From Desulfobulbaceae bacterium (GTDB taxonomy: Bacteria; Bacteroidota; Ignavibacteria; Kapaibacteriales; UBA2268), in assembly GCA_018335795.1 (NCBI GenBank), contig JAGXRP010000009.1:1-59851 (forward strand): a stretch of 59,851 bases of DNA, read 5' to 3'. The position numbers and the translations under genes are program-made. Position 1 is the first letter of the stretch; every line of letters begins with the position of its first letter. The notes beneath the pieces were generated by a model that did no database searches, had not been told where the DNA came from, and saw only the letters and a list, made by a program, of their open reading frames with translations. Positions 17,730 through 59,350 of the stretch are shown in pieces.

Positions 17730-17756
17730 TAAGAAAATATTGCACTTAGTATAAAC

Positions 17757-17784
17757 ATAGCCCACAATTGATTTTGTGGGCTAT
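17757..17784. terminator. Hairpin between convergent genes, probable bidirectional terminator
   Basis: ATAGCCCACAA and TTGTGGGCTAT form a perfect 11-bp stem with a 6-base loop between the POT stop and the stop of the T9SS gene on the other strand. The flanks lack a strong T run in either direction, so termination efficiency is uncertain. Confidence 0.6.
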
Positions 17785-17795
17785 ATTTATGATAT

Positions 17796-19940
17796 TTACA
17801 TCTTCACAAACATCTGCGTCCGGCTGCCAATGCGGAGGTAATACACTCCGCGAGGGAGATTGGACACATCAATGCGTTGTAGATGTCCAACATCTCCAAG
17901 ATGTTGGACATCTGTTAATTCAATCACACATTCACCAAGAGTATTGAAAATTTTGATTTCTGAACCTTCCGAAGGTTCGAAACCTTTGGAAGGTTTGGTA
18001 ATTGTAATATATTCGCTTGCCGGATTGGGGAATACAGTTAAACTTGTCGAATAATCAGACTTCACACTCGTGCTTGTTTTGGGTTGTACATCAATTTTAA
18101 TTGTGTCCGTTATTGAATACCCGCAAAAATTGTCGTGCCGGAACTTTGCAAAATAATACCCATCATCTGCAAAAGTTACTTCTCTAATGTATCTATACCA
18201 CAAGCCGTGAAGTGCTGTGGTTTGTTGAATCAACTGCGGTGTACTGTTCAGATATGGCATGTAGTATAATTCTACATTAATCTCTTCTTCTTCCTCGTTG
18301 AGAAACTGTACATACATGAGTGTGTCTAAATCACCATAGGACACAACTTTATCATTTGGTTGTTTAAAAATAGCAGGTTTTGCATATACTTTTATAACAA
18401 ATTTGTTACTCCAGATTGTGGTATCTCCAATTTCCTTTCCATGTTTTGTTCTTGCAGTTATATGATAATGTCCATCATCCAATTTTCTCAAATTTTTAAA
18501 TGTCAATTTATTAGTAATTCTTCCTTCATAAAACTTTTCATCAGTTAAAGTGTTTCCATTATTGGATGCCCATGAATAATTCAAATCCGATTGCTTATGC
18601 AAATAATAATTCATTTGTAAAGTGGTACTTTCGCCTTCGCAGAATTCTCTATATTGGTTCCATGGGTCTCTGCCTTCGAAATCATTCAAGTTATCTCTTA
18701 TCGTAACAGTATCGGAAATAGAAGTACCGCAACGATTACGTACTACTGCCCAATACCTTGCATCTTTATTGCTAGTATCAACTCCGTAATTAATAGGTAT
18801 TAACCCTATGTTTGCATTTGCCCTTGCTAAATCATAAGCATTATGTACCCATTCAGGCTCCCAAGTATTGACTAATTCACCGTCTCGGTAAACATCAAGA
18901 TATGTAGAATCACCGATTTCATAAAATATTGATAAAAATACTTTAGTTCTATAACCTATTCCTGCAGTCATATCTTCAATTCTTAAAGCAACAAGTTTTG
19001 GTACTTTGATAATTTTCATATCAATACTGTTTGATTTTAAATTGTAATTCAACTTTTTAATATTCGCTTCAAGTCGGTATCTACCTTCGTCTTCCGGCAA
19101 TATAGGAGAGAAAACCAATTCATCGCTTCTTGAGCCTATTACATTATGCTTATTAATAATTGGCATATCGTCTTTGAACCATTGGAATTCCATCTCGTAG
19201 TTATTCGGATTGTTGATTTCTGCCTTTATTGTGCGAATACTACCGTTGCAAGGGTCCAAATCATCAATAGCCAAATTAATAACAACATCATCCAAATTTT
19301 TAATTATGCGGACAGTTCGCGTTACGGCTGCACCACAACTGCCATTGATTGAAGCAAAGTAATACGTAGTGTCAAGCAATTGTGTTAAATGGACATTCAA
19401 TAAATTTGAATTGGAACCGCTAAAGATTTCATTATCAATTAATTCATATGGGATATGCTCGAGAACTTCGTACCATTGGATTTTGATATTTTCGCCACTC
19501 ATAAGTGCTTGAGCGATAGGCATACCATTTACATGAGCATCAAAAGTCAAAACGACTTTGCCTTCCGACAAATTAATTCTCACATCATCAGGTTGCCGAG
19601 TAATTGAAGTGGGACGAATAGCATAAACAGATGCAACGCGGGATTGGACGTAATCGGTGTTGTCTGCATTAGAAACTCTACATGAATAATTACCGGATTG
19701 GAAATGCTTGAGTGATTGGAACATCAAAAGCGATGAATTTGCTCCAAATAGCATTATATCGTCCATATACCATTGGTATTTCAATTCTTGACCGGATTTC
19801 GATTCTGCAAATACTTTCAAAATAACTTCAGAACCGATACATTGAGTTGATGATATAGGGTGCTCTGTGATTTCAATATCTTGAGCCTGCAAATTGCTTA
19901 CAAGAAATGCAAAAAATATAAATATATAAAATTTTTTCAT
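17796..19940 (-). CDS. Multi-Ig secreted protein with T9SS sorting domain
   Basis: A 714-residue secreted protein. The signal peptide is MKKFYIFIFFAFLVSNLQAQ. Several Ig-like units follow, each with a 'YQWYMDD'- or 'YSCRVSN'-type strand and conserved Cys/Trp. The C-terminal sorting domain starts at 'LTVFPNPASEYITI' and ends 'LPRGVYYLRIGSRTQMFVKM'; it would direct export through the T9SS and attachment to the surface. Upstream in-frame ATGs exist at 19946 and 19952, but GAGG sits six bases before ATG 19940. Two palindromic DNA inserts lie inside the sorting domain (separate entries). It is 28 bases downstream of the Cys-rich gene and may share its transcript. The ligand is unknown. Confidence 0.9.
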   Translation of the reverse strand: MKKFYIFIFFAFLVSNLQAQDIEITEHPISSTQCIGSEVILKVFAESKSGQELKYQWYMDDIMLFGANSSLLMFQSLKHFQSGNYSCRVSNADNTDYVQSRVASVYAIRPTSITRQPDDVRINLSEGKVVLTFDAHVNGMPIAQALMSGENIKIQWYEVLEHIPYELIDNEIFSGSNSNLLNVHLTQLLDTTYYFASINGSCGAAVTRTVRIIKNLDDVVINLAIDDLDPCNGSIRTIKAEINNPNNYEMEFQWFKDDMPIINKHNVIGSRSDELVFSPILPEDEGRYRLEANIKKLNYNLKSNSIDMKIIKVPKLVALRIEDMTAGIGYRTKVFLSIFYEIGDSTYLDVYRDGELVNTWEPEWVHNAYDLARANANIGLIPINYGVDTSNKDARYWAVVRNRCGTSISDTVTIRDNLNDFEGRDPWNQYREFCEGESTTLQMNYYLHKQSDLNYSWASNNGNTLTDEKFYEGRITNKLTFKNLRKLDDGHYHITARTKHGKEIGDTTIWSNKFVIKVYAKPAIFKQPNDKVVSYGDLDTLMYVQFLNEEEEEINVELYYMPYLNSTPQLIQQTTALHGLWYRYIREVTFADDGYYFAKFRHDNFCGYSITDTIKIDVQPKTSTSVKSDYSTSLTVFPNPASEYITITKPSKGFEPSEGSEIKIFNTLGECVIELTDVQHLGDVGHLQRIDVSNLPRGVYYLRIGSRTQMFVKM
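17881..17913. repeat. Perfect 15-bp inverted repeat inside a T9SS sorting-domain coding sequence
   Basis: AGATGTCCAACATCT, 3-base spacer, AGATGTTGGACATCT. Read in the gene frame it codes for the segment DVQHLGDVGHLQ, placed in the loop just before the conserved 'RIDVSNLPRGVYYLRI' strand. A 33-base perfect stem-loop that stays in frame is unlikely by chance and looks like an inserted element. Confidence 0.85.
17962..17996. repeat. Two adjacent short palindromes inside the same sorting domain
   Basis: GAACCTTC-C-GAAGGTTC (17962-17978) is followed by AAACCTT-TGG-AAGGTTT (17980-17996). Together they code for PSKGFEPSEGS, located in the first loop of the sorting domain between 'YITITK' and 'EIKIFNTLGE'. 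The two units are similar to each other, suggesting duplication of one palindromic unit. Confidence 0.8.
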
Positions 19941-19980
19941 TTTCATCCTCATATTAAAATAAACTATTCACCATTTTGAG

Positions 19981-20911: not shown

Positions 20912-22834
20912 TTATCTAACTACAGTGAACTTTTTAAATACCGAACCCTCCTTTGTATTTATACTTAGATAGTATTGACCGGGTGGAAATGATTTTACTT
21001 CAATATCAAATGTATGGGCGCCTATTTGTTTATTGCCTATTATGCCGTTTAGCAATGCTTCGCCGGATAGGTCATAAATAGTATAAGTAAGCTCATTCAT
21101 TTTGTTCATGGTTATTTCGATATTCAATTTTTCATTTGCGGGATTGGGATATAATTTAGTGATGAACAAATCGGAATATATGCTGACAATATCGGGGACA
21201 TCCGTAAGATATTGTTCAAGATTTTCCACATCAATTTTAGCCATGTAGATATTAATATTTCCGTCGTTTGTTCTGCCATCAGCCCACACAGGTATTATAG
21301 TGTTGCCGTCAGAAACGATTGCATTGTATTCACCGATACCGAAATTGTTATTCCGTGAACCAATATTGTTAAAATTCATTGGTTCGGATGTAAGCGGAAA
21401 TTCGACAAAACTGTCACCTTGGTCTTTTGATACAGCAAGGTAATAATGTGTTGAAGCAGTTGTAGAATGGCGTCTGTCGTAATATGAAATAGACAATACA
21501 CCTTTGGAACTAACATTAATTGAAGAATAATAAGCATGAATCTTCTGCCCAACAGGATGTTGGTTGACAATCTTTGGTGCCGACCATGTATTGCCACCAT
21601 CAGTTGATTTAGCTAAATAAATATCCAGTCCGCGCTGTGCATTAGAATTCACACCATTAGCAGTCCACGCTAAATAGAGATTATTTTCACCAACGCCATT
21701 ACTACGGTCTATAGCAAGATATGGACAAGGATACAAACGCGATTGATTCATTCCCGAAACAGTTTCAGCTCCACCTAATTGATATAAGGTACCTTGAATT
21801 TGTGCAATTTGTTCAGGCACTGAGAATGTCAAACCACCATTTTTGGATACGCTGTGAAATAAATATCCTATTCCGTCACTTCTTGCTCCAACAAATGTAA
21901 AGTGGACATGTCCGTTCAAATCAACATCTAATGAACCAAATTGAACCAATTGAAAACCTAAACCTCGAGTGATGTTAGTGCCATCCTTGTCGAATTGCGA
22001 TGATGAAGCAGATTTCGAAAATATTATCAAATTAATTCCATAATCAGGTGAAGTGAAATCAACATCCATCTGCATTGCACTTGTGTATATGTTGTTGTAA
22101 TAGGGCGATGAACTTGTCACATCAGCTGCCATCCATTGTTTGTCGAGCATATATGTAATACCCGAGCTACCTGTATAACGAGACTTGACAATTTTTCCTA
22201 TGTACATTGAGTTTTCAAAATTGAAATTCACCCCGCCGTCGTCAGAACTTGCATAGTGCATAACAGCCCAAACTGAATCCGGGATAAATTGATTAGGATT
22301 TTCGGGCGATGAAATTGTGGATACACAGATATTAATCCATGATAAAAACAATTTGCCATCTCCATCAAAAACAAGTACCGGGTCGCCACCACCAACTATT
22401 AATACATTCTCAATTATTGGTTTTGTAATGAAACTACTTTTTTGCCAACTTGCTCCTTGGTTTTTGGTATAATATATTGGACAAGAGAGAGGCGACATTG
22501 GATTGGCAGTATTTTGATTGATTGGCGAAACAACGATGTTGTCTGGATTTGTGGGGTTGATTGCTGCATGAACTTCAGATTCTACAACCGAGGTAATACT
22601 TACAGGGGATTCGAGCTTGGAGCCTTGAAATTCAGGGAGAGTCAAATCTTCAATCTTTTTGTAATTATCGGGATTGTTGATTCTGTCTAACAATTCCTCA
22701 GCTTTAAGCCTATACTTTTCATTTTTCCAAAATTCCTTAACTTTTAGATGGCTTTCACTCATTTCCCTTTCTTGGGTGAATAATATATTGCTACTGATTA
22801 GAAGCAAGATGAGAACAAAAAATACATATTTCAT
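20912..22834 (-). CDS. Secreted Asp-box (sialidase-like beta-propeller) protein with T9SS sorting domain
   Basis: A 640-residue protein. The signal peptide is 'KYVFFVLILLLISSNILF'. The body has repeated Asp-box motifs, 'YTKNQGASWQKS', 'SDDGGVNFNF', 'SKNGGLTFSV', 'STDGGNTWSAP' and 'SKDQGDSFVEF', which mark a sialidase-type propeller. Catalytic Arg triads are not assignable by eye, so enzyme activity is not claimed. The sorting domain runs from 'ITKLYPNPANEKLNIEI' to 'GQYYLSINTKEGSVFKKFTVV'. It is divergent from lon across 151 bases. Confidence 0.88.
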   Translation of the reverse strand: MKYVFFVLILLLISSNILFTQEREMSESHLKVKEFWKNEKYRLKAEELLDRINNPDNYKKIEDLTLPEFQGSKLESPVSITSVVESEVHAAINPTNPDNIVVSPINQNTANPMSPLSCPIYYTKNQGASWQKSSFITKPIIENVLIVGGGDPVLVFDGDGKLFLSWINICVSTISSPENPNQFIPDSVWAVMHYASSDDGGVNFNFENSMYIGKIVKSRYTGSSGITYMLDKQWMAADVTSSSPYYNNIYTSAMQMDVDFTSPDYGINLIIFSKSASSSQFDKDGTNITRGLGFQLVQFGSLDVDLNGHVHFTFVGARSDGIGYLFHSVSKNGGLTFSVPEQIAQIQGTLYQLGGAETVSGMNQSRLYPCPYLAIDRSNGVGENNLYLAWTANGVNSNAQRGLDIYLAKSTDGGNTWSAPKIVNQHPVGQKIHAYYSSINVSSKGVLSISYYDRRHSTTASTHYYLAVSKDQGDSFVEFPLTSEPMNFNNIGSRNNNFGIGEYNAIVSDGNTIIPVWADGRTNDGNINIYMAKIDVENLEQYLTDVPDIVSIYSDLFITKLYPNPANEKLNIEITMNKMNELTYTIYDLSGEALLNGIIGNKQIGAHTFDIEVKSFPPGQYYLSINTKEGSVFKKFTVVR

Positions 22835-56557: not shown

Positions 56558-59350
56558 TTATTCGATTACAATCACTTTGTCGAGCACGACTGAACCGTTG
56601 ATTTCGAGCATAATCAAATATGTTCCGGCACTTAATGACGTTCCGTTGTTAATATTCCACGTCAAATTATTATTTCCCTCCAAAGCATAACCATTTTTGG
56701 TATTGAGTAATTCACCTTTGGGATTGAATAATTTTAAAGTGTAAGATAAATCATGTTTTGCAGATAACTCCAAATTCAAATGTTCGGCAGTCGGATTCGG
56801 GAAAATTCTCAAATCATTTATATACGCTTTGATATCTTCGACTGATGACAGAGAAGATACAGCTTTCAACTCAACAGAGATTTTTTCGATTTCGTCAAAT
56901 TCGATTTCCAACATTGCCGAATAATTGCCTTCAACGTCGGACATGAATTGAGTATTGATAGTCAATTCAGCACCGGCATCAATCACAGTACCATCATAAT
57001 CTTGAGCAATCGAGAACACATTATCGTCATCACCTGATATTGAAACCATGCTAATTTTGACAGATGAATTGCTGTTATTCGTGATAGTTAGTGACTGCGT
57101 AGGATTTTCATCAACCAAAACAGTTCCGAAATTAATCAATTCGGTTGAGAGCTCAATTGAATATTCTACCGCAAGGGCTGTCATTATAATTGTTGCTTCC
57201 TGACCGTCTTCCGTAACAAAGGTAAGTTTATAGGTCTTAGTTCCTTTAACAGTAGGAGTTACATCTATCATTAAATCAGCTTTTTCGCCCGGTCCTAATT
57301 CCTGTGGAGTTGGGAAACTGATAGTCATAGTGCCGTCTAATAAATCGTCTTCCAATATCAGTTCATTTATTAAGATTGGCTTGCTGCCCACATTTCTGAC
57401 TAATTCTACGATTGTAAATTCATAATTCTTGTTTAGTTCGATAATGCCTAAATCATAAGCAGTTGTCAAAAGTGATAATTTACCATCTTCAATTACATCA
57501 ACTGTAACGGTTACAATAGATGATTTGATAGTTCCGCAATCATTTGTAACATTGCAATAATAAGAACCTGCATCAGCAGTAGAAGCGCTTGCAATGCTCA
57601 AAGTAGCGGCAGTTTTGCCTTCTAATTCAGTATCATTATGGTACCACTGATAATCGAGTTCGCTTCCTGTTGCAACAACAGTGAGCTCGAGCATTTCACC
57701 TGCAGCGACTGTTTTTGAACTTGGCTGAGTAGAAATTATTGGAGCAGAATTCATAGTTACTTTTGCTATTGATGATTCAACCGCATCGCCACAAGTGCCT
57801 TGAACGACTACTTGATAATTTCCGGTGTCGGATGCTTGGAAGTTTGAAATAACGTAAGTAGCATTGACTGCATTTGTGATATCAATACCATCCTTTTTCC
57901 ACTGGTAACTAATACCGGTTCCCATAGCAACAACTGAAAGCATTAGTTCTTGATTTTCGCAGATGGATTTGCTTTGTGGATTAACAGTGATTTCGGGTGT
58001 TACACCCAAACTCAAAACAGCCGGAATACTTGTAACTGTCGAACCGCAATCTCCGGATACTTTTGCTGTATAGCTACCGGCGTTTGAACCGGAAACACTA
58101 AACAATTTCAAAGTGTCTCTATTTTCACCCGTTAACAACTGTGAACCTTTGAACCATTCTACTTTTTTGTTTAAACCCGTAGATTTGATAACAAACATTA
58201 CATCAGCTCCTGCACAAGCATCTACACCCGTTGGTTGCTGCGTAATTTTTGCATTTTCGTTAACTGTAAGTTTAGCAGTATTACTCGTTATAGGTGCACC
58301 ACAATCAGGTGTAACTACTAAGACGTAATCACCGGCACTTTGGAGTGAAGCAGAATTTATGGTAAGTGAAGCAGAGTTTGAATTCGGAACGGCAGTACCG
58401 TTTTTACGCCATTCATAAGACTTAACACTACCCGTCACAGTCGCTGTCAATGTAACAGATTCTTGCTCGCAAACAGTAATATCCGTAGGTTGCGAAGTAA
58501 TGGATGCAGGACCTGCAATTGTAAAACTACTTGTTTTTCCCGAAATATTAGCATCGGCGACATCTGTCAGACGAATCTGATATTGAGTTCCCGGGGTTAA
58601 ATCAACAGGGATGTTCCAATTAAATGAACCAGAGCCTGCACTGACACTATTCGCAATAACTGTAGGGAAAGACGACCCGCCATTAGAAGAAAGCTCAATT
58701 TTGAGATTATCAATTCCGGATTGAGTCCACTTAATCTCTTGAGTAGTTCCGGCGCACCATGTCGAAGAACTTGTAGGAGCAGTAACCGTTGCACCGGCAA
58801 CAATCAAAGTCTTTGGTGTCATCCAATTCCATTGGTCTCCACTCGTACCTCCATTTTCATTCACTGCATTACCGATTGCCCTTAGATAATAAGTCCCCGG
58901 TGTAGTGGGAGCCTTCCAAGTAAATGTAAATTCAGCATACGTCAATTCACCAAATGATTTGGGTGATGAGTGAGTAAGTTCGCTTGATTCAGTCCTTAGA
59001 CCCGAACCGCTCGCAAAACTGAGAGTGCCGGCATTTGTAGAGCCGGTTTCGGTTGTCTTAACAGCTATATTAACACCTGCTGCGGATTGACTTGAATTTG
59101 TTACTCTAACAACAAAATCCACTTCTTGGTCAGGACTAAACTTAAAACTACCTGTAGAACTTGTGACTTGCAAAGTAGTTGTGCTACTTGATGAGGAACC
59201 GTGGCAATTGCAACCGTTTGAATTAGTTGCTGTCAATCCTGAAATTCCACTACCACCACTCCTGGAGTAAACTTCTGCCCCAAACCATACGAAAAATGCA
59301 ATTAATAGTAAAGGAATGGAGAATCTCATAAAAGGGTTAGCTTTTTTCAT
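56558..59350 (-). CDS. Choice-of-anchor-V / multi-Ig secreted protein with T9SS sorting domain
   Basis: A 930-residue secreted protein. Signal peptide 'FSIPLLLIAFFVWFGAEVYS'. A Reelin-like 'choice-of-anchor V' domain begins with 'NGCNCHGSSSS' (about 45-55). A fibronectin-like unit (about 190-280) leads to at least four Ig-like units with repeated 'ITSQPTDITVCEQESVTLTA'-type starts and 'YQWKKDG/YEWRKNG' cores. Two ASPM/SPD2-like beta-sandwiches follow. The sorting domain runs from 'LRIFPNPTAEHLNLEL' to 'AGTYLIMLEINGSVVLDKVIVIE' (read in parts). Likely a surface adhesin; no enzyme motif is seen. Confidence 0.9.
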   Translation of the reverse strand: MKKANPFMRFSIPLLLIAFFVWFGAEVYSRSGGSGISGLTATNSNGCNCHGSSSSSTTTLQVTSSTGSFKFSPDQEVDFVVRVTNSSQSAAGVNIAVKTTETGSTNAGTLSFASGSGLRTESSELTHSSPKSFGELTYAEFTFTWKAPTTPGTYYLRAIGNAVNENGGTSGDQWNWMTPKTLIVAGATVTAPTSSSTWCAGTTQEIKWTQSGIDNLKIELSSNGGSSFPTVIANSVSAGSGSFNWNIPVDLTPGTQYQIRLTDVADANISGKTSSFTIAGPASITSQPTDITVCEQESVTLTATVTGSVKSYEWRKNGTAVPNSNSASLTINSASLQSAGDYVLVVTPDCGAPITSNTAKLTVNENAKITQQPTGVDACAGADVMFVIKSTGLNKKVEWFKGSQLLTGENRDTLKLFSVSGSNAGSYTAKVSGDCGSTVTSIPAVLSLGVTPEITVNPQSKSICENQELMLSVVAMGTGISYQWKKDGIDITNAVNATYVISNFQASDTGNYQVVVQGTCGDAVESSIAKVTMNSAPIISTQPSSKTVAAGEMLELTVVATGSELDYQWYHNDTELEGKTAATLSIASASTADAGSYYCNVTNDCGTIKSSIVTVTVDVIEDGKLSLLTTAYDLGIIELNKNYEFTIVELVRNVGSKPILINELILEDDLLDGTMTISFPTPQELGPGEKADLMIDVTPTVKGTKTYKLTFVTEDGQEATIIMTALAVEYSIELSTELINFGTVLVDENPTQSLTITNNSNSSVKISMVSISGDDDNVFSIAQDYDGTVIDAGAELTINTQFMSDVEGNYSAMLEIEFDEIEKISVELKAVSSLSSVEDIKAYINDLRIFPNPTAEHLNLELSAKHDLSYTLKLFNPKGELLNTKNGYALEGNNNLTWNINNGTSLSAGTYLIMLEINGSVVLDKVIVIE

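Follow-up and report, generated by a model that had tools for sequence, protein, structure and literature searches.

Introduction

Palindromic repeats that lie within protein-coding sequence have been described chiefly in Rickettsia and only seldom elsewhere. We report two such repeats, elements A and B, in the C-terminal sorting tail of a protein encoded in 59,851 nucleotides of contig JAGXRP010000009.1 (assembly GCA_018335795.1) from an Ignavibacteria-related bacterium, a stretch referred to below as the window; the tail is of the kind associated with the type IX secretion system (T9SS). An earlier note, made from the letters of the window, had likened the inserts to the Rickettsia palindromic elements (RPEs), which enter genes in frame at tolerant loops, and had suggested that sorting tails would be a good home for them. 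From the distribution of A and B in the source genome and its relatives, we consider it probable that tail loops tolerate the entry of small mobile palindromes whose length leaves the frame intact, and that these then spread between tails by short-tract recombination.

RPEs are 100–150 bp long, and orthologous genes can carry RPEs of different families at the same or a nearby position (PMC3767692); they are said to lose their repeat identity over time (PMC6649704). The repetitive extragenic palindromes (REPs) of the GTAG type are palindromes of 20–40 bp, mostly intergenic with some in frame, that are linked to tyrosine transposases (PMC3733652). Palindromic amphipathic repeat coding elements (PARCELs) are stretches of coding DNA that show dyad symmetry and are scattered through membrane proteins (PMC2996958). 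In Porphyromonas gingivalis, five of 19 BrickBuilt elements, which are miniature inverted-repeat transposable elements (MITEs), adjoin a gene with a C-terminal domain (CTD), and 29% of CTDs are MITE-associated (PMC4596501). RAYT denotes a REP-associated tyrosine transposase. Among the papers listed by searches of the open-licence literature, none dealt with palindromic inserts inside T9SS tails.

Elements A and B in the window gene

The host gene (17796–19952, minus strand) encodes a 718-residue protein with Ig-like domains and a C-terminal sorting tail, its product matching Ig_3 (E 3.3e-14) and, over residues 640–716, Por_Secre_tail (PF18962, E 5.7e-13). The tail (17802–18035, minus strand), placed by a TIGR04183 match on contig C9 and by a ColabFold model with a mean pLDDT of 79.7, has seven predicted strands. 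A Foldseek search with the model gave top matches that include the T9SS substrate NucA (8glk_D), PorU (6za2), the RgpB CTD (7pq4) and PorZ (5m11), all of them modest, with a best E value of 1.3e-3 and none below 1e-3. The TIGR04183 and PF18962 profiles and the predicted CTD fold together identify the domain as a T9SS sorting tail.

Element A (33 bp, 17881–17913) is a perfect inverted repeat with arms of 15 bp and a spacer of 3 nt, as the earlier note had read it, and codes for DVQHLGDVGHL(Q) within the minus-strand reading frame (peptide DVQHLGDVGHLQ). Element B (33 bp, 17963–17995) codes for KPSKGFEPSEG and has 14 of 15 pairs matched, each half also being nearly self-complementary; the two adjacent palindromes that had been reported at 17962–17978 and 17980–17996 are indeed present, but as the halves of this single repeat. 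The chance expectation for an inverted repeat like A in the window is ∼5e-4 (59,851 positions x 9 spacers / 4^15), and both A and B stand at 1 in 101, the floor, when compared with 100 synonymous shuffles of the same peptide. In the model, A falls in the loop between strands 4 and 5 (residues 40–44 and 57–60), where residues 48–54 have pLDDT below 50, and B in a low-confidence stretch between strands 2 and 3 (residues 13–17 and 31–34); we refer to these sites as loop 2 and loop 1, respectively. The other tails of the window, at 20921–21154 and 56567–56806, hold no inverted repeat scoring 11 or more, in keeping with the earlier observation that they lack such inserts.

Dispersal of A and B

In the sequences that follow, G numbers denote genomes, L numbers loci fetched from relatives and C numbers with coordinates contigs of the window's own genome (G000; 3.53 Mb in 82 contigs). 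A is present there as eight elements, built from 16 arm matches, and all eight lie in T9SS-tail coding sequence: five in tails with a profile match, one in a tail truncated where its contig begins, and two in tail remnants situated behind an in-frame stop. A remnant at C6:134400–134780 holds A together with half of B behind such a stop, with another palindrome nearby (C6:134851). A further 12 lone A arms with two mismatches were taken as chance, a control pattern having given three forward and one reverse. For B, the genome has ten copies with up to three mismatches, some in tails and others intergenic.

Both palindromes recur in related genomes. A is found in 12 of 149 genomes including its own, that is in 11 of 148 relatives, and these comprise 12 of the 54 genomes of the family and none of 95 outside it. 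Exact A was found among 84,980 species, from which its own or very near genomes were possibly left out, only in three metagenome-assembled genomes (MAGs), G017, G002 and G015, two of them named Ignavibacteria or Ignavibacteriae and one plainly 'bacterium'; the exact pattern had no match in IMG/VR. B extends to 22 of the 54 family genomes, its own included, with up to 82 copies per genome. In G002, an Ignavibacteriota MAG of the same genus as the window, all nine A copies lie in loop 2 of tails in the same phase, and G001, also of this genus, has no A copy.

In another relative from the family, G017 (CoA_1_bin.73), A has 97 copies with up to three mismatches. The 49 exact copies have 33 bp in common, beyond which conservation ends sharply, the flanks being unrelated save for a few partial copies alongside. 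Of these, 39 lie outside tails and outside open reading frames (ORFs) of 200 residues, and ten inside such ORFs (at least 200 residues) or tails; the reading is xDVQHLxDVGHL in nine of these and RCPTSxRCWTS in the tenth, all three phases of the element being free of stops. Its hosts include a PruA-type aldehyde dehydrogenase, in which a 20-residue insertion at the site is absent from 3qan and 3rjl, the FAD subunit of a molybdopterin dehydrogenase, the barrel of a TonB-dependent receptor, and three different tails, at loops 1, 2 and 3. A is a dispersed repeat and a discrete 33-bp unit. Of B in G036 and G033, none of 19 distinct copies (examined out of 50 with at most one mismatch) lies in a tail and one sits at the start of a 471-residue ORF of doubtful coding worth. 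The expectation that copies sit preferentially in tails holds for A within the window's genus; in A-rich G017 most copies lie outside them. Neither of the outcomes that had been named as telling against the earlier proposal, the palindromes occurring nowhere else or the same residues being encoded without DNA symmetry, was observed.

Elements resembling A in which both arms are altered jointly occur in G006, G003 and G033, for example as TCCTACA/TGTAGGA and CCAACACCT/AGGTGTTGG, and these symmetric variants tend to be specific to one genome.

Palindrome families in tail loops

The window's genome encodes at least 150 sorting tails (150 of 215 candidates scored). An inverted-repeat scan over 861 kb, chosen to hold tails, gave 89 strong inverted repeats, of which 36 fall into recurrent families: 20 in tails, eight within 250 bp downstream of a tail gene and eight elsewhere, three of the last being the contig-edge tail and the two tail remnants that carry A. 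In 400 kb of tail-poor DNA from the same genome there are 14 strong inverted repeats, none from these families. The two palindromes originally noted prove too few, as there are at least eight families, at least six of them beyond A and B. Read from their peptides, the loop 1 families are B, C (INPTVNRRVD), F (TSEVLETSEV), H (NKGLQPL), E (CCCCCTCTTTTAAGAGGGGG type) and, rarely, A-like variants; those of loop 2 are A, D (VETRHAVSLQ, VETIHELSLQ), G (IHPMTPSHRM) and P, an asymmetric cassette (CCCTTCGACAGGCTCAGGG). A palindrome resembling another family, K, occupies the last loop of tails in G034 and G043. The elements are 33, 30 or 24 bp long, all divisible by three, and are open in the frame used. 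All 38 copies of family C with at most two mismatches (G000, G001 and G002) are located in tails, so that the expectation of in-frame copies in tail loops is borne out in the window's genus for C as well as for A.

The symmetry of the loops was measured in tails from five genomes (G000, G001, G002, G034 and G043), comprising 126 rows of which 107 passed the tail filter and 99 could be parsed into loops (98 for loop 2). Inverted-repeat scores of at least 9 occur in 63/99 sequences for loop 1, 45/98 for loop 2 and only 2/99 for a control strand, the last 25 codons. The mean scores of 10.4, 8.6 and 4.5, respectively, compare with 4.5, 4.3 and 4.7 for 100 synonymous shuffles per sequence. The loop DNA is palindromic beyond what codon choice gives. 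For residues common to two tails, the codon is identical in a fraction of 0.89–0.99 within inserts compared with 0.47–0.72 in the flanks (families A, B, C, D and G), which indicates that the inserts are of more recent origin than the surrounding tail DNA, or have been homogenised to a greater degree. The case as a whole further points to a T9SS sorting tail that can accommodate differing peptides at particular loops.

Tails L325, L329, L333, L337, L341 and L349 of G043 are uniform, with short loops and no strong palindromes, and may show what tails looked like before elements entered them. The cassette P codes for PSTGSGSG in loop 2 of G000, G001 and G002, and a related one reads LRQAQG once; similar repeats are known from many environmental genomes. 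Palindromes of the same or related families also lie 14–39 bp past tail matches (C82:108987, C14:12183, C21:52358 and C77:72350), as though the landing zone took in the ends of tails more broadly, in a sample that is biased towards tails. At the 3' end of the window gene, between convergent genes, a terminator-like hairpin (17751–17790) carries ACATAGCCCAC, and hairpins with ACATAGCCCAC at C1:41654 and C36:90128 mark a further repeat family.

Probable exchange of loops between tails

The families of the two loops assort freely: B and C in loop 1 are each found with A, D, G and P in loop 2. A recombination-free tree without repeated insertion cannot explain tails that pair in this way. Genes were matched on up to 150 residues upstream of the tail, which gave 43 reciprocal-best cross-genome pairs among the fetched tails, 22 of them at least 80% identical upstream. 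In these 22 pairs loop 1 differs in 17, agrees in four and is untyped in one, and loop 2 differs in 11, agrees in six and is untyped in five; the single pair alike in both loops has an untyped loop 2. The loops thus appear to behave like swappable cassettes across near-identical genes of sister species.

Twelve pairs, chosen by us, were compared closely before, between and after the loops. The adjacent paralogues C20:41789 and C20:44214 agree at 0.93, 0.67 and 0.97 in these three segments, against a background of 0.77, 0.72 and 0.67, so that they have unusual ends in common and a swapped interior, the pattern that a short tract would leave. Shared ends and a swapped interior are likewise seen between L382 of G001 and L363 of G002 (0.90, 0.79 and 0.95). 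More distant homologues of the window gene, from another genus and 39–43% identical, also vary in their loops: L319 has A in loop 2, in a frame with one stop, L321 has C in loop 1, L320 an H-like loop 1 of weak symmetry, and L317 short loops. Relatives with other inserts, or with no strong ones, which the earlier note had proposed to look for, are thus present both as homologues and as near-identical gene pairs. Because A and C within the genus are confined to tails and to one loop each, short homologous exchange offers the readier account of their spread there, most of which is probably due to tail-to-tail recombination.

Y1 transposases in the family

Transposases of the Y1 (RAYT-like) type are candidate movers. 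The window's genome has no Y1_Tnp match among 11 candidates scored, and 27 of the 54 family genomes have matches, 25 of them above the cut-off. Thirty Y1_Tnp loci (L247–L276) contain no A or B core and have G nearby in only two (L255 and L266), and 17 of the 30 lack an inverted repeat scoring 10. The view that these loci would support, that the Y1 loci of relatives lack palindromes, does not hold for G017 and G006.

At L280 of G017 a Y1_Tnp match (E 1.8e-8) lies between two pairs of AACAATGGAGCATGCTCCATTGTT copies (family K), one pair to either side with an equal spacing of 54 bp, and a variant of AACAATGGAGCATGCTCCATTGTT is found inside. Everything lies in one open frame of 1166 residues with methylase parts on either side, residues 358–436 and 705–742, which align to residues 21–94 and 103–140 of chain 8cxz_A, the second being weak on its own. 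Since the two segments match adjacent parts of 8cxz_A, some 268 residues including the transposase would have been inserted in frame. The insertion (L280 1466–2194, G017:C33) is an in-frame transposon within an Eco57I-type restriction-modification methylase, in an intein-like position with no sign of splicing. Family K in G017 thus provides a Y1 gene flanked by palindromes, and this arrangement suggests the mover.

Elsewhere the association is looser. A lies 492 bp beyond the Y1_Tnp match of L281 in G017, where a 291-residue ORF (1118–1990) with a weak Y1_Tnp match opens with repetitive EKVAQTPPSVHKPIKEEVSQ and has A downstream; two G elements lie ∼590 bp from the Y1_Tnp ORF of L277 (G017), and an A variant ∼306 bp from that of L286 (G006). 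A or an A variant is found within 500 bp of Y1_Tnp at L281 and L286, and at none of the 30 other loci. Three A copies lie in or near a frame-broken gene at L243 (7049–7850), as do 24-bp units resembling A that are arranged in tandem; we take this gene to resemble a RAYT, and neither of its pieces matches Y1_Tnp. RAYT-like transposases are likely candidate movers for A and B.

Discussion

We propose that palindromes of 24–33 bp disperse through genomes of the family, landing mostly between genes, and that a rare genic copy would survive where a frame-neutral, hydrophilic peptide falls in a tolerant place. Entry by a mobile palindrome is suggested by the unrelated sites, with sharp edges, at which A is found, and the Y1 (RAYT-like) transposases of relatives would be the likeliest agents of this first, transpositional step. 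T9SS tails, being many per genome, alike, and tolerant at the 2–3 and 4–5 loops, would collect elements of many families, presumably without effect on secretion. Within a genus, copies may then spread and swap among tails by short-tract homologous recombination, as in gene conversion, faster than the host proteins diverge.

Several observations weigh against this reading. For A and B no precise empty/filled pair was seen at the nucleotide level that would reveal a target duplication or an excision. Loops that carry inserts are not much longer than short ones, the means in G000 and G043 being 17.5 and 16.4 residues for loop 1 and 20.1 and 17.0 for loop 2, which is not the picture of a clean addition. 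In G017 the excess of A copies in tails is slight (3/49, with tails at ∼2% of the DNA examined), and one of these three, L221, is in an ORF of just 78 residues. Loop swapping could also be recurrent insertion, and the 22 gene pairs share genes and are hence non-independent. Individual comparisons fit less well: between C38 of G000 and L322 of G002 (0.67, 0.61 and 0.80) the flanks before the loops are no better than background, between C8 of G000 and L380 of G001 the tail end differs as well (0.53), and loop 2 of the short-loop homologue L317 scores 8 (p 0.01). The family labels derive from peptide patterns that we chose, eight of 107 tails were unparsed, and the named relatives are MAGs, where assembly may have joined small repeats wrongly.

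A stronger form of the first step is that the palindromes are REP-type, each family moved by its own RAYT-like Y1 transposase, the transposases having been lost from the window's genome; we regard the chances of this as evenly balanced. It draws on the presence of Y1_Tnp in half of the family genomes, on the palindromes near Y1_Tnp at L280, L281, L277 and L286, on G near L255 and L266, and on the three A copies at the broken gene of L243, which lacks a Y1_Tnp match. It is opposed by the lack of Y1_Tnp in the window's genome and in G003 and G033, both of which have A, by the 30 Y1_Tnp loci without an A or B core, and by the absence from A and B of an unpaired GTAG or CGTC tag. A different extension, which we think rather unlikely, is that the palindromes are specialised on T9SS tails and that their hairpins promote short-tract exchange, so that dozens of tails trade loop peptides; if true, the shuffling of loop cassettes would diversify the tail or the way in which the secretion machinery deals with it.

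Selection for a function of the symmetry in mRNA or DNA, such as a 3'-end hairpin, a terminator or a protein site, would account for the compensated cells in C (5) and D (16; shuffle P 2e-4 each) and for the eight of 36 family copies within 250 bp downstream of a tail gene, in a tail-biased sample. It appears improbable, as the one-sided changes in C and D are mostly plain mismatches (17 and 18) rather than G-U wobbles (6 and 5), compensation is absent from B and G, the D variants may be subfamilies inserted separately, another loop 2 cassette lacks strong symmetry, and most G043 tails read do without. We read the pattern as that of symmetric variants which inserted anew and then decayed, for which hairpin selection is unneeded. 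That no mobility is involved, the palindromes being ancestral tail loops spread solely by gene and tail duplication, is very improbable: within the window's genus A and C do occur only in tail sequence (8/8, 9/9 and 38/38), each in one loop, but for A and B the idea is contradicted by the unrelated sites of A in G017, by the B copies of G036 and G033, none of 19 in a tail, and by near-identical gene pairs that carry different loops. Coincidence or convergence at the protein level is hardly credible; the peptides are polar, as loops often are, but the synonymous shuffles and the near-fixed codons refute it.

Mobile entry followed by exchange between tails therefore remains our preferred explanation. 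The elements are short, numerous and varied in family, and sister species carry different ones in genes that are otherwise almost identical, so that entry, exchange and decay should be traceable stepwise, and a relative's transposase, bracketed by a palindrome and itself in frame inside a gene, makes the mechanism testable. Conserved loop peptides of this sort should not be taken for functional motifs.

Comparison with known systems

The tail elements share with RPEs the existence of several palindrome families, their in-frame position in unrelated proteins, the occurrence of different families at corresponding places in related genes and the loss of repeat identity with time, and A, like RPEs, enters existing ORFs and keeps the frame. 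The likeness proposed in the earlier note stands for in-frame entry at tolerant loops, but the elements are not RPEs by length or host: they measure 24–33 bp, with A a 33-bp unit of sharp edges, as against 100–150 bp (PMC3767692), and A, among the genomes scanned, is limited to one family of bacteria distinct from the Rickettsia and Wolbachia hosts of RPEs. They differ further in that one domain family is the main home within the genus, that the loop families assort freely, and that the elements differ between near-identical genes.

PARCELs likewise have dyad symmetry in coding sequence but are tandem 25-residue amphipathic repeats, whereas the tail elements are single inserts of ∼8–12 residues in an existing fold. 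BrickBuilt, with its association of small repeats with T9SS tail genes, is similar in setting, although these MITEs are described as adjoining the gene and not as lying inside the tail (PMC4596501).

Resemblance to REPs is seen in the dispersed, mainly intergenic palindromes (A in G017, 39/49; B in G036 and G033), though not in A and C of the window's genus, and resemblance to the REP/RAYT pairing in the Y1_Tnp gene of G017 flanked by palindrome pairs, unlike the window's genome with its lack of Y1_Tnp. REPs bear an unpaired GTAG or CGTC at one end, whereas A and B pair to their ends; among A, B and D, on which the tag was examined, A has no common flanking tag in its 49 G017 copies and the GTAG of D is paired with CTAC. 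The closest described kinds are RPEs and the intragenic GTAG/CGTC REPs, from which the tail elements are set apart by the length that defines the former and the unpaired tag that defines the latter.

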